DNA of 64,000 nt, from contig AP024674.1 of NCBI GenBank assembly GCA_025998755.1, forward strand, positions 2,868,162 through 2,932,161. Reading direction: 5' to 3'. Position 1 is the first letter of the stretch. Each line of letters begins with the position of its first letter. The position numbers and the translations under genes were made by a program. The notes under the pieces were generated by a model, which worked only from the letters and a program-made list of their open reading frames with translations, was not told where the DNA came from and searched no databases. This document shows, in pieces, positions 18,906 to 23,759 of this stretch. The DNA is from Armatimonadota bacterium. Lineage in GTDB: Bacteria > Armatimonadota > UBA5829 > DSUL01.

Positions 18906-18933
18906 TTGCCTGTCAGATGTGGTAAAAGATATT
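18906..18933 (+). promoter_or_regulatory. Putative promoter of the fluoride-riboswitch operon
   Basis: TTGCCT and GATATT are spaced by 16 bases and would start transcription at about 18940, exactly where the riboswitch aptamer begins. The -10 is imperfect. Confidence 0.5.
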
Positions 18934-18940
18934 TGAATGC

Positions 18941-18992
18941 AAGGGGATGGAGTCCCCCGCAATCGTCGCAACCGGCTGATGACTCCTACCAG
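18941..18992 (+). ncRNA. Fluoride riboswitch aptamer (crcB motif)
   Basis: The RNA matches the fluoride riboswitch consensus almost base for base. GGGG (18943-18946) pairs with CCCC (18954-18957) around ATGGAGT. The conserved GCTGATGACTCCTACC stands at 18975-18990, and GGAGT (18949-18953) can pair with ACTCC (18982-18986) as in the known pseudoknotted fold. Between them is the short variable hairpin region. The aptamer lies 55 bases before the dynamin-like GTPase gene, whose neighbour is crcB, the classic target of this riboswitch. I consider the class assignment firm; fluoride binding itself is not tested. Confidence 0.93.
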
Positions 18993-18998
18993 CAATAG

Positions 18999-19038
18999 CC
19001 GTCCTCGCCTGCAAAGGCCGCGGACGGTGGCAGGAGGA
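18999..19038 (+). promoter_or_regulatory. Riboswitch expression platform with alternative Shine-Dalgarno-masking helix
   Basis: Two exclusive helices can form after the aptamer. CCGTCC (18999-19004) pairs with GGACGG (19022-19027). Alternatively TCCTC and CTGC (19002-19006, 19009-19012) pair with GAGGA and GCAG (19034-19038, 19030-19033), which hides the AGGAGG ribosome site of the gene starting at 19047. There is no T run, so control at translation is the likely mode. Which helix fluoride favours cannot be read from sequence. Confidence 0.6.
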
Positions 19039-19046
19039 ACGGTCCA

Positions 19047-20885
19047 ATGCAAGAAGCCCTGCGCGAGGATCATCTGCCGGACGTCGCCCCACCCACGGTG
19101 TCGCCTCCCGGCGATCCCCTGTTCCGTGCTCTTCAGGAAGCCATTGCGCTCTGTTCCGGCCCGGCCGCATCGGACGCAGCTGCCGGCAAACTGGCCGCGC
19201 TGGCCCGCCGCCTGAGTGAGCGACGCTTTCACCTTGCCGTGCTTGGCCAGTTCAAGCGCGGAAAAAGCACCCTGCTGAACGCTTTGCTGGGAGAGGATGT
19301 CCTTCCCTCCTCCGTGCTGCCCCTCACCGCCATTCCCACCTTTATCCGCGGTGGAAGCGAACGCAGCGCGCGGGTGGAGTTCCAGGGTTCCCGGGATCCC
19401 GATGTGGCCACGGCGGCGGATCCGGAAGAGCTGCGCGCCTTCCTGGCGCGGTATGTCACAGAAGAAGAGAATCCCGGCAACCGTCTGAACGTCTCAACTG
19501 TCGAAGTCACCCACCCTGCGCCTCTGCTGACGCAGGGCGTGGTGCTTATAGACACTCCCGGCATCGGCTCCACCCACCGGCACAACACGGAAGCCACGCT
19601 GAACTTTCTCCCCCAGTGCGATGCGGCTCTGTTCGTCGTGTCGCCGGATCCTCCGGTCACGGAGGTGGAGATCGAGTTCTTGAAGAGGGTGCGCTCCCGG
19701 GTGGGGCGGATCTTCTTCGTGCTGAACAAGGCGGACTATCTGGAGGGGCCGGAGCGGGAGGAGATGCTCCGTTTCGTGGAGCGTGCGCTGCGGGAGCACG
19801 CGGGTCTGGACGGCGACCTGCGCCTTCTGATGATCTCTGCCCGGCAGGGTCTCCAGGCAAGGCGCTCCGGTGACTCCCGTCTGTGGGACTCCAGCGGGAT
19901 GCGCGAGCTGGAGTCGCATCTGCAGAGCTTTCTGGTGCGGGAGAAGGAGTCCGCGCTTCACCGGACGGTCGCGGCTCGTGCGGTGGAGGTTCTGGAAGAG
20001 GTCCTTCTGGAGAAGCGGTTGTCGCTGGAGACCATGCGGCTGCCCGTCGAGGAGATCGAGCGGCGGCTCAGGTTGCTGGAGGAGCGGTTCCGCGAGGTGC
20101 AGCTGCGTCAGGTTGCCGTGCGCGACGGACTGGCCGGAGACCGCAAACGTCTGGCCGCCCTGCTTGAGGAGCAGGCGGCGCAGCTCCGCAAGAAGGCGTT
20201 CAACCTCTTTATGAAGACTGTAGAGTGCGCCATTGACGAGCCCGGCGCGGGTCCCGGCGCGCCGCAGGAGGCGCTCGCGGAAGTCATTCCGGCCTTCTTC
20301 GAGAACGAGCTGGGTGAGCTGTCCACCGAGTTCGAGTCGCGCGTCCGGCAGACCCTGGATCTCCGCCGCCGCGAGGTAGATGCCCTGGTGGATGCGGTCC
20401 GGCAGACTGCCGCGGAGCTGTTCGACCTGCCGCACCACGCCACAACGGATACCGGCGAGTTCGAGGTGACGCGCGAGCCCTACTGGGTGACCCACTACTG
20501 GCCAATCACTCTGGGGCTGCTCCCGGAGGGGTTCTGGGACCGGTTCCTGCCGGCCGCGATGCGCCGCAGACGGCTTCTTGCCAGGATGAAGGAGAGGGTG
20601 GAGGTGCTGGTGGCGGAAAATGTGGAGAACGTCCGCTGGCCCACCCTGCAGAACCTGGACCGCAGCATCCGGGAGTTCGGCGAAGAGCTGGACAGACGCC
20701 TGGAGGAGGCGGTCCGGGCCACCATCGGGGCCATAGAGGCCGGCCGTAGCCGCCGGTTGGAACAGAGCGGGATGTTGCGGCAGGAACTGGCGCGGGTGGA
20801 AGGGCATCTGAACCAGCTTCAGTCGTTGATCCAGAGGGTCGGGAATCATCAGAAGATTACGCCGGAAGGACAGGTTCAAGCGTGA
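19047..20885 (+). CDS. Dynamin-like GTPase under a fluoride riboswitch
   Basis: Large GTPase of 612 residues. The G1 loop is GQFKRGKST at 67-75, G2 probably the Thr in LPLTAIPTF, G3 DTPG at 169-172 and G4 NKAD at 227-230. The rest (about 300-600) is mainly helical with long charged coiled-coil stretches, and includes one weakly hydrophobic aromatic segment near residues 475-500 that could be a membrane paddle. This is the bacterial dynamin-like protein layout; members remodel or protect membranes. There is no classical transmembrane pair. AGGAGG stands nine bases before the ATG, inside the riboswitch platform. The end overlaps crcB by four bases, so both proteins should be made together in response to fluoride. 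Confidence 0.82.
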   Translation: MQEALREDHLPDVAPPTVSPPGDPLFRALQEAIALCSGPAASDAAAGKLAALARRLSERRFHLAVLGQFKRGKSTLLNALLGEDVLPSSVLPLTAIPTFIRGGSERSARVEFQGSRDPDVATAADPEELRAFLARYVTEEENPGNRLNVSTVEVTHPAPLLTQGVVLIDTPGIGSTHRHNTEATLNFLPQCDAALFVVSPDPPVTEVEIEFLKRVRSRVGRIFFVLNKADYLEGPEREEMLRFVERALREHAGLDGDLRLLMISARQGLQARRSGDSRLWDSSGMRELESHLQSFLVREKESALHRTVAARAVEVLEEVLLEKRLSLETMRLPVEEIERRLRLLEERFREVQLRQVAVRDGLAGDRKRLAALLEEQAAQLRKKAFNLFMKTVECAIDEPGAGPGAPQEALAEVIPAFFENELGELSTEFESRVRQTLDLRRREVDALVDAVRQTAAELFDLPHHATTDTGEFEVTREPYWVTHYWPITLGLLPEGFWDRFLPAAMRRRRLLARMKERVEVLVAENVENVRWPTLQNLDRSIREFGEELDRRLEEAVRATIGAIEAGRSRRLEQSGMLRQELARVEGHLNQLQSLIQRVGNHQKITPEGQVQA

Positions 20886-21262
20886 CCCCGGATTTGAGGA
20901 TTCTTGCCCTGGCACTGGGTGGCGCCCTCGGAACGATATGCCGCTATCTTGTATCCGTGGCTTCCACGAAGCTCTTCGGAGCGGTGGTGCCGGCCGGAAC
21001 GTTTCTGGTCAACCTGAGCGGATGTTTCCTGCTGGGGTTGATGTTCGGGCTGGGGGAGGCTCGGGGTGTCAGCCCGGGCTTTCGCCTGTTCTTTATGACG
21101 GGCTTCCTGGGCGCCTACACCACGTTCTCCACATTTGCCGTGGAGAGCGTGCTGGCGCACGAAGGCGGCAGAGCCGGGCTGGCGACCGCTAACATCCTGG
21201 CCAACAACCTGGGCGGGCTGGCGCTGGCGAAGGCGGGGTTGATGCTGGGCAGGCTGATCTAG
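20882..21262 (+). CDS. crcB: Fluoride channel/exporter CrcB (Fluc)
   Basis: Small inner-membrane protein of 126 residues that forms dual-topology dimers and lets fluoride leave the cytoplasm. Four membrane helices are evident. Family hallmarks include GGALGTICRYLVS near residue 13-25, PAGTFLVNLSGCFLLGL with the conserved Asn, and GFLGAYTTFSTFAVE, where the Thr/Phe residues line the pore. A single copy is present here, suggesting a homodimer. Start is GTG at 20882, overlapping the GTPase stop by four bases. Its presence supports the riboswitch call upstream. Confidence 0.95.
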   Translation: MTPDLRILALALGGALGTICRYLVSVASTKLFGAVVPAGTFLVNLSGCFLLGLMFGLGEARGVSPGFRLFFMTGFLGAYTTFSTFAVESVLAHEGGRAGLATANILANNLGGLALAKAGLMLGRLI

Positions 21263-21276
21263 GGGGATAGCGGATA

Positions 21277-22548
21277 ATGCCGGTCGAATATCGCGTAATC
21301 GAGGTGTTCACAAGCGAGGAGGCCCGCTGGGAAGGGCGGCCTGTGTGGGAAGCCATTCTGGATGCCGTGCGCCGCTCGGACCTGGCGGCTCGCTGCACCG
21401 TGAGCCGGGCGATGGCCGGTTGTTACGAGAACGGTGAGATGGCGTCGGGCAGCCTGGAGGTGCTGTCGTTCAATATGCCGCTGAAGATCGAGGTCATCCT
21501 GCCGGCCGCCCAGCTGGATGAACTGCTTCCCCGCATCGAGGAGATGGTGACCGATGGCATCGTCGCCGTCGAGGAGATGCAGGTGCGGGCGCATCGGACC
21601 CGGAAGCGCCTCATCCCCCGGCAGCTCCGGGTGAAGGATGCCATGACTCCCTCTCCGCACGCCGTCACGCCCGCCACGCCCCTGGCCGATGTCGTCCGTC
21701 TGTTGCTGCGCCACCGCTTCAACGGCGTGCCGGTGACCGGTGAAGACGGCCGCCCCGCCGGTATCATCACGCAGAAGGATCTCATCCAGCGCGCCGGGAT
21801 GCCGGTTCGGCTGGGACTGCTGGCGCAGTTCGGGGAGCAGCAGGTCAATGAGTTCCTGGCTTCCATTCAGGACCGGAAGGCCGCCGATGTGATGAGCGCT
21901 CCCGTTGTCACGGTGCGGGAGGACCAGCGTCTGGGCGAAGCGGCGGACCTGATGCTGCGCAAAGGGCTGAAGAGGCTTCCCGTGGTAGACGCGGATGGCC
22001 GCCTGACAGGAATGCTCTCCCGCTTCGATGTCTTCAAGACCATCACCACGGAGTCCCCGGACTGGCGCAAGATCCGGGATCAGTATGTCTCGGTGGCCAA
22101 CGTGCGAACTGTCGCCGACATCATGCGGCGCGACGCGCACACCGTACCCCCGGACACTCCGCTGGAGGAGGTGGCCCGTCTGATTGACGACAGCGACATC
22201 CAGCGCGTCGCCGTGGTGGACTCAGAAGGGCGGTTGGTGGGGCTTGTATCGGATTCCGATCTGCTGTCCGTCTTAGCAGAGCACAGGGGCGGGCTGTGGG
22301 AGTCGCTGAAGGCCCGTCTGGGGCTTTCCGAGGCAGCACGGCGGCAGGCCGGGTCCGCACGGACGGCGGGCGACATCATGAGGACCGGCCTGATCACGGT
22401 GACGGAAGAGACGCGCATTGAGGATGCCATCCGTCTGATGACGGAGCACGGCATAAAGCGGCTGCCGGTGGTGGACGAATCCGGCGTCTTCCGTGGGATG
22501 GTCAGCCGCGACTCGCTTTTGCGCGCAGGACTGGAGCAGGAACAATGA
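21277..22548 (+). CDS. DUF190 domain fused to four CBS domains
   Basis: Cytosolic protein of 423 residues. The first 105 residues are a DUF190 domain (ferredoxin-like, PII-like family), a frequent neighbour of crcB. They are followed by four CBS repeats at about residues 118-172, 199-254, 277-330 and 366-418, recognisable from their repeated DxM(T/R)...V(T)P/V...A..LM...I.RLPVVD.DGRL.G(I/M)(I/L)S..DL pattern. Paired CBS domains bind adenine nucleotides, so the protein may report energy state or nucleotide ligands to the channel or transporter. The gap from crcB is 14 bases, and its stop overlaps the MFS start. DUF190 usually occurs alone or with fewer added domains; this size is unusual. Confidence 0.85.
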   Translation: MPVEYRVIEVFTSEEARWEGRPVWEAILDAVRRSDLAARCTVSRAMAGCYENGEMASGSLEVLSFNMPLKIEVILPAAQLDELLPRIEEMVTDGIVAVEEMQVRAHRTRKRLIPRQLRVKDAMTPSPHAVTPATPLADVVRLLLRHRFNGVPVTGEDGRPAGIITQKDLIQRAGMPVRLGLLAQFGEQQVNEFLASIQDRKAADVMSAPVVTVREDQRLGEAADLMLRKGLKRLPVVDADGRLTGMLSRFDVFKTITTESPDWRKIRDQYVSVANVRTVADIMRRDAHTVPPDTPLEEVARLIDDSDIQRVAVVDSEGRLVGLVSDSDLLSVLAEHRGGLWESLKARLGLSEAARRQAGSARTAGDIMRTGLITVTEETRIEDAIRLMTEHGIKRLPVVDESGVFRGMVSRDSLLRAGLEQEQ

Positions 22549-23759
22549 CCACGGAAGTAACGGCCGAGGCGAGACATACGGGCAGGGCGATGCGCTTCGT
22601 GGTGCTCCTGGGAGTGGTCAGCCTGTTTGCTGACATGACCTACGAAGGCGCCCGAAGCGTCACAGGACCATTCCTGGCGACCCTGGGCGCCAGCGCGGCC
22701 GTGGTGGGGTTCGTGTCTGGACTGGGCGAGCTGGTGGGCTACGCGGTGCGGTTGGTCTCGGGCTACCTGAGCGACCGCACGGGCCGCTACTGGACGCTGA
22801 CCATCGTGGGATATTGCGTGAATCTGCTGGCCGTTCCGCTGCTGGCCTGGGCCGGCCGGTGGGAGGTGGCCGTCGCACTGATTGTGGCGGAGCGTTTCGG
22901 AAAGGCTGTCCGCACCCCTCCGCGCGATGCCATGCTGTCCCACGCCGCCAGCCGCACCGGAGCGGGACGCGCCTTCGGGCTGCACGAGGCGCTGGATCAG
23001 GTTGGCGCCGTCACCGGACCGCTCATCGTGACCGCTGTGTTGATGGTGGGGGGCACTCATCGCACGGCGTTTGCCATTCTCGGAATCCCGGCCATTGTGG
23101 GAATCTCGCTGGTCATAGCGGCCCGCCTTCAGTATCCCGTGCCCAGGACCATGGAGGTTCCTGACGGCGGCAGGGAGGAAAGAGGCGGAAGTCTGCCGCC
23201 GCAGTTCCGTCTGTATCTCGCGGGTGTCGCTCTGGTTGCTGCGGGGTTCGCGGACTTTCCGCTGATGGCCTATCATTTCGCCCGGACTGACGCCTTTGCG
23301 CCTCAGACCATCGCGCTGGTGTACTCAATGGCGATGGCGGTGGACGCGGCTGCCGCTCTGATCTGGGGCAGGTTGTACGACCGGGCCGGGCTGCGGGCGA
23401 TGCTCATTGCCGTCGCGCTCTCCGCAGCCTTTGCGCCGCTGGCGTTCCTGGGCAAAGGGTGGCTGCCGCTTGCCGGAGTGGCCCTCTGGGGAGCGGGGAT
23501 GGGGGCTCAGGAGTCGGTCATGCGGGCCGCCATATCGCGCATGGCTCCGGCAGGCCGGAGGGGAACGGCATACGGCGTGTTCAACAGCGTCTACGGGGCG
23601 GCCTGGTTCGCCGGCAGCGCGACCATGGGTCTGCTCTACACCCGGCACCCTGCGCTGCTGGTGGCTTTTTCCGTAGTCGCGCAGGTTCTTGCGCTCCCGT
23701 TCATCCGGGCCTCTGAGCGGGGCGGTCCCGCCGCTGGTCCGGCGCGGGGAGCGGGGTGA
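22545..23759 (+). CDS. MFS transporter
   Basis: Twelve-helix major facilitator of 404 residues in the inner membrane. The loop 2-3 motif appears as GYLSDRTGRYW, and a second-half counterpart as LIWGRLYDRAGLR. The FGLHEALDQVGAVTGPL segment in helix 5 is shared by a group of uncharacterised bacterial MFS proteins. Substrate is unknown. The ATGA overlap with the DUF190-CBS gene makes it part of the fluoride-controlled operon, so a role in export or osmotic/ion recovery during fluoride stress is possible; this is inference from context only. No terminator is visible in the 114 bases before the convergent UDG gene. Confidence 0.8.
   Translation: MTTEVTAEARHTGRAMRFVVLLGVVSLFADMTYEGARSVTGPFLATLGASAAVVGFVSGLGELVGYAVRLVSGYLSDRTGRYWTLTIVGYCVNLLAVPLLAWAGRWEVAVALIVAERFGKAVRTPPRDAMLSHAASRTGAGRAFGLHEALDQVGAVTGPLIVTAVLMVGGTHRTAFAILGIPAIVGISLVIAARLQYPVPRTMEVPDGGREERGGSLPPQFRLYLAGVALVAAGFADFPLMAYHFARTDAFAPQTIALVYSMAMAVDAAAALIWGRLYDRAGLRAMLIAVALSAAFAPLAFLGKGWLPLAGVALWGAGMGAQESVMRAAISRMAPAGRRGTAYGVFNSVYGAAWFAGSATMGLLYTRHPALLVAFSVVAQVLALPFIRASERGGPAAGPARGAG

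Follow-up and report, generated by a model that had tools for sequence, protein, structure and literature searches.

Resistance to fluoride is usually explained by export of the ion, pH homeostasis and increased production of the enzymes that it inhibits. Once HF has passed through the membrane it dissociates, so that the cell is acidified and its proton-motive force falls, and the published fluoride-response set includes exporters, antiporters, enolase, pyrophosphatase, HAD phosphatases and formate hydrogen lyase (PMC11139923), with mutS noted at the discovery of the crcB motif (PMC2864571). Among bacterial dynamin-like proteins (BDLPs), mycobacterial IniA is induced by tuberculosis drugs, binds anionic lipid with a trunk-tip loop and cuts membranes with GTP (PMC6715688), and for B. 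subtilis DynA, which is linked to antibiotic stress, a role in mending damaged membrane has been proposed (PMC8144471). Here we describe a locus in a 64,000-nt stretch of DNA from an Armatimonadota bacterium (hereafter the window, with coordinates counted from its first nucleotide), in which a predicted fluoride riboswitch precedes an operon led by a gene for a dynamin-like GTPase.

The aptamer, which an earlier note made from the letters of this DNA had called near-consensus, lies on the forward strand at 18934..18995 and matched the Rfam covariance model of the fluoride riboswitch (RF01734) over its full length (model positions 1-64 of 64), with 50.2 bits against a gathering score of 34 (E = 6.1e-11). 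Its pseudoknot strands, GGAGTC and GACTCC, were placed with this model and an alignment with 38 relatives. It is the sole RF01734 aptamer in the genome (3.29 Mb, one contig), and from the covariance match the RNA is predicted to be a riboswitch that binds fluoride and switches expression. Four genes follow on the same strand, in the order and with the two four-base overlaps that the note had given. The first, 51 nt beyond the aptamer, encodes the dynamin-like GTPase of 612 aa (19047..20885; Dynamin_N 7.3e-29, 101 bits against 27), and its stop shares 4 nt (GTGA, 20882-20885) with the GTG start of a gene for a CrcB/Fluc fluoride channel (20882..21262). The identity of CrcB, likewise proposed in the note, was confirmed by CRCB (4.7e-25) and by TIGR00494, whose equivalog cut-off it passes (92.2 versus 80.45 bits). 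After a gap of 14 nt comes a gene whose product has a DUF190 domain and, behind it, four CBS domains (21277..22548; DUF190 1.6e-21; CBS 3.2e-67 in four stretches), and which overlaps by ATGA (22545-22548) with the gene for an MFS transporter (22545..23759; MFS_1 7.9e-42).

A probable translational expression platform spans 18984..19040 on the forward strand; in it, pairing of the aptamer 3' strand CTCCTACC with the Shine-Dalgarno region GGCAGGAG could enclose an inner hairpin, CCGTCC/GGACGG. In the minimum free energy structure of the window leader (-50.4 kcal/mol, z = -2.07), CUCCU of the 3' pseudoknot strand of the aptamer paired with AGGAG of the ribosome site, and the same pairing was predicted in sister genome G001. 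Among 51 related leaders, Shine-Dalgarno pairing was predicted in 20 and terminator-like hairpins in 13. The window switch is probably translational, by Shine-Dalgarno masking, as judged from single-sequence folding in which the complementarity of CTCCT and AGGAGG is partly built in, given that aptamers conserve CTCCT and ribosome sites AGGAGG. In such a switch, a rise in cytoplasmic fluoride would lead F- and Mg2+ to bind the aptamer, and the CUCC strand, drawn into the pseudoknot, would no longer mask the Shine-Dalgarno sequence, leaving the ribosome site free for translation of the operon. A transcription-terminator platform was rejected for the window leader because it has no U-run. Terminator-like matches were close to chance level, and a consensus sigma-70 scan found no promoter.

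The G1, G3 and G4 motifs that had been reported for the GTPase were located at residues 67-74 (GQFKRGKS), 169-172 (DTPG) and 227-230 (NKAD); all details of the note's observation that were checked proved right. Nearly all positions of these motifs were invariant across 69 relatives, with the P-loop, DTPG and NKxD intact throughout. The predicted structure (mean pLDDT 88) contains a GTPase domain with long neck and trunk helices, and its least certain inner segment is an inner loop at the trunk tip (residues 471-484). This loop carries a PYW motif (residues 478-480), which, in the 18 alignment rows viewed, recurred in most riboswitch-linked relatives, with PFW or PSW in some, and had lost its Y in a Desulfuromonadales-type clade that lacks the linkage. 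When the model was compared with the PDB by Foldseek, the top matches were IniA (TM 0.56) and Nostoc BDLP; a sequence-profile search of the PDB returned BDLP as the best match (4.7e-40), followed by Campylobacter DLP, IniA and mitofusins. The modelled fold is thus BDLP-like, and with a dynamin-type GTPase domain carrying G1, G3 and G4, and a predicted helical neck and trunk ending in a putative membrane loop assigned by position only, the protein classes as a bacterial dynamin-like protein by fold, as far as sequence and model indicate. For such a protein we infer membrane binding, self-assembly and GTP-driven remodelling. It reached neither the equivalog cut-off of DynA (NF052648; 78.6 versus 1600) nor the subfamily cut-off of LeoA (NF041922; 20.2 versus 325).

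The earlier note had proposed searching genomes for dynamin genes downstream of RF01734 RNAs, and the linkage recurred both within the phylum and far beyond it. Two separate scans of 291 genomes of the phylum looked for RF01734 and, by means of a 15-member profile, for the GTPase, of which matches above 300 bits were taken as strong. A riboswitch lay upstream on the same strand within 6 kb of 18 of the 23 strong homologues but of none of the 18 distant dynamins (Fisher p = 1.7e-7), a contrast which, because riboswitch-linked members had served as seeds of the profile, shows that the linked members form a recognisable subfamily rather than a linkage independent of the seed. Within 8 kb, a riboswitch was found for 19 of the 23. 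In the phylum sample chosen by riboswitch, a dynamin was present in 18 of 114 riboswitch units and in 18 of 91 genomes; since many genomes with a fluoride riboswitch have no dynamin in the riboswitch unit, the dynamin is an accessory.

Beyond the phylum, a protein-only scan of the genomes of 84,980 species yielded more than 585 relatives of the GTPase, of which the best 80 were kept. Apart from a sister genus, these best 80 are 36-49% identical to it and, with phyla taken from record titles, span about 20 bacterial phyla as well as Methanomicrobia; Bacillota, Desulfobacterota, Planctomycetota, Omnitrophota, Atribacterota, Acidobacteriota, Spirochaetota, Synergistota, Verrucomicrobiota, Calditrichota, Latescibacterota, Sumerlaeota, Pseudomonadota and others are represented. 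Most are metagenome-assembled, and gene calls at the neighbouring loci are mechanical ORFs. Viral contigs held no relative of the GTPase, and plasmids no match to it at 1e-40.

Riboswitches at these 80 loci were scored with a covariance model (R1) made from 39 riboswitches of the phylum, for which RNAalifold had taken the pseudoknot helix as its basis instead of the stems of the Rfam model. Because R1 undervalues some true sites, its counts are lower bounds (L234 scored 19 bits by R1, and 35.8 and 38.4 by the Rfam model). By this measure, at least 63 of the best 80 loci hold a fluoride riboswitch. In 49 the aptamer stands directly before the GTPase gene: 47 aptamers end at most 400 nt upstream of the ORF, and in L232 and L238 the called GTPase ORF runs through the aptamer. 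Rfam's own model confirmed riboswitch sites in the loci tested; one R1 site is in L245, which also has a strong site. A single fully supported clade, mostly Desulfuromonadales, accounts for 12 of the 17 loci that lack a riboswitch (L235, L241, L242, L244, L246, L247, L249-L252, L254 and L257), and outside this clade the riboswitch is present in 63 of 68 loci. Among the other five, the Rfam model found no riboswitch in L189, L204 and L229, and in L208 and L219 the sequence ends at the GTPase start. Because one clade keeps the protein without the riboswitch, the chemistry of the dynamin is not fluoride-specific. Three loci of this clade have a SAM riboswitch within about 4 kb upstream.

We then considered 208 riboswitch transcription units, 82 of which encode a dynamin, a proportion that is not a frequency because nearly half of the units come from loci picked for holding one. 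Of these 82 units, 57 begin with the dynamin and 19 consist of it alone, which, together with the surveys of the phylum and of the 80 loci, strongly supports the earlier proposal that a dynamin is a genuine target of fluoride riboswitches and often the first. Its commonest partner is enolase (15 units), followed by MFS transporters (12), Na+/H+ antiporters (10+2), MutS-type proteins (8), Usp (5) and CrcB (4), with DUF190 also among the partner genes. These partners largely belong to the published fluoride-response set (PMC11139923; mutS, PMC2864571). Since crcB occurs in so few dynamin units, the constant is fluoride control and not CrcB. The note would have judged the linkage accidental had related genomes as a rule carried the GTPase but not crcB or the aptamer: absence of crcB is indeed the rule, absence of the aptamer is not.

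On a tree of the dynamins (quick method, no bootstrap), whose deep joins are unsafe because of long branches among distant dynamins, riboswitch-linked members fell into a main clade with 83 proteins, two smaller clades, one of nine proteins from the window's phylum and one of three, and a distant group (L191, L211, L233 and L234); by this sequence-based placement, fluoride-riboswitch control covers more than one dynamin clade. At five loci (L211, L233, L234, L191 and L240) a second, distant dynamin likewise follows a fluoride riboswitch, either one of its own or one that is shared. These loci possibly encode fluoride-induced dynamin pairs, in line with a published account in which BDLP genes are mostly paired in operons (PMC6104087). 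On a Candidatus Acidiferrales contig (L239), seven fluoride riboswitch matches, six of them above 33 bits, lie within about 10 kb and make up a dense fluoride island around the dynamin.

Other protein families also recurred in fluoride-riboswitch units. DUF6062 (PF19538) was found in 26 of the 114 units of the phylum, as the first gene in 19 and together with a dynamin in 7 (for example L132:2617-3282, L148:8305-8964 and L033:7422-8129), and is probably another unrecognised fluoride-response family. Three small families without an accepted Pfam match were c8 (about 20 units; L130:4642-5202, also L132 and L131), c10 (about 10 units; L200:10387-10866) and c21 (about five units; L243:4593-5207).

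The regulatory link between fluoride riboswitch and dynamin is well supported. We consider it probable that the window carries a fluoride-resistance operon whose first gene comes from a BDLP subfamily dedicated to the fluoride response, protecting or repairing the membrane under HF/F- stress; a membrane-stress role is our best inference for the GTPase. CrcB would let F- out of the cell. The GTPase would use its trunk-tip loop to bind the cytoplasmic membrane on the inner side, assemble there and spend GTP on remodelling, sealing or repairing membrane that HF entry and the acid load have damaged or depolarised, and the induced dynamin may in this way limit leakage or repair the membrane. Because the relatives mostly adjoin the same switch, in about 20 phyla and in archaea, membrane remodelling looks overlooked in fluoride resistance. 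The chances appear even for a wider proposition, namely that an unrecognised, horizontally spread dynamin subfamily serves bacteria and archaea as a dedicated arm of their fluoride response, that fluoride toxicity includes a membrane lesion which is actively repaired, and that the GTPase may also sense fluoride via GDP-metal fluoride.

An alternative that we regard as unlikely casts the GTPase as a target of fluoride: F- with Mg or Al would mimic the transition state on GDP and jam the enzyme, which the cell would then overproduce, as proposed for enolase and pyrophosphatase. Inhibition of GTPases by metal-fluoride complexes is established and favours this explanation. So does the commonest partner gene, enolase, which is inhibited by fluoride and riboswitch-controlled (PMC11139923). 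However, the dynamin is patchy and dispensable, being absent from most fluoride-riboswitch genomes, and therefore does not look like a housekeeping enzyme to be rescued, and no riboswitch lies near the more distant dynamins of the phylum (0 of 18). Direct sensing of fluoride by the GTPase, in which GDP with MgF3- or AlF4- would lock an active, membrane-assembled state and act as a second switch at the protein level, with remodelling only while F- is high, strikes us as quite improbable. The intact, invariant G motifs, a dedicated subfamily with its own riboswitch and the general metal-fluoride chemistry of GTPases are consistent with it, whereas no residue was found that marks special metal-fluoride binding.

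The suggestion in the earlier note that the GTPase organises CrcB was weakened by the wider survey. Assembly with CrcB/Fluc or other exporters, or their placement in the membrane, would fit the 4-nt translational coupling of the GTPase and crcB genes in the window, but only 4 of the 82 dynamin units include crcB, and in many the dynamin stands alone or with enolase or antiporters; because crcB is such a rare partner, we rate this role as very improbable. An accidental association, through operon traffic or a chance match of the aptamer, for which the patchiness of the dynamin alone would speak, can practically be dismissed in view of the Fisher test within the phylum and of a riboswitch at 63 of 80 relatives that were selected by protein and come from two domains.

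Compared with described dynamins, the window GTPase is closest in solved fold to IniA, with which it shares a single GTPase domain, neck, trunk and tip loop (lipid-interacting in IniA) and which is induced by stress, as is predicted for the window GTPase; however, the two are only about 20% identical, IniA is induced by drugs and not by a riboswitch, and we know of no link between IniA and fluoride. Nostoc BDLP (2J68/2J69/2W6D), the best profile match in the PDB, has the same architecture, but its identity to the window GTPase is also about 20% and no fluoride control of it is known to us. B. subtilis DynA consists of two fused dynamin units and is constitutive, and the window protein matches it weakly at the N-terminus, below the equivalog cut-off. 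With described fluoride riboswitch regulons (crcB motif, RF01734), the loci reported here have in common an aptamer above threshold and the partners CrcB, enolase, Na+/H+ antiporter, Usp and MutS-type proteins; they differ in having a dynamin-like GTPase as their first target, a gene absent from the lists of PMC2864571, PMC7266159 and PMC11139923. Its position behind a fluoride riboswitch in about 20 phyla and in methanogens implies that a membrane component is missing from these lists. Bacterial and archaeal dynamins would thereby gain a defined chemical inducer, NaF, and the finding may matter for engineered microbes that degrade fluorinated chemicals and whose growth is limited by the fluoride released. 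Among the open-access papers searched we found none that links the fluoride riboswitch, crcB or fluoride resistance with a dynamin, an earlier listing in Baker et al. 2012 (Science) or its supplement being possible. While both the riboswitch and the protein superfamily are known, the pairing of fluoride riboswitch and dynamin is widespread and appears to be new.
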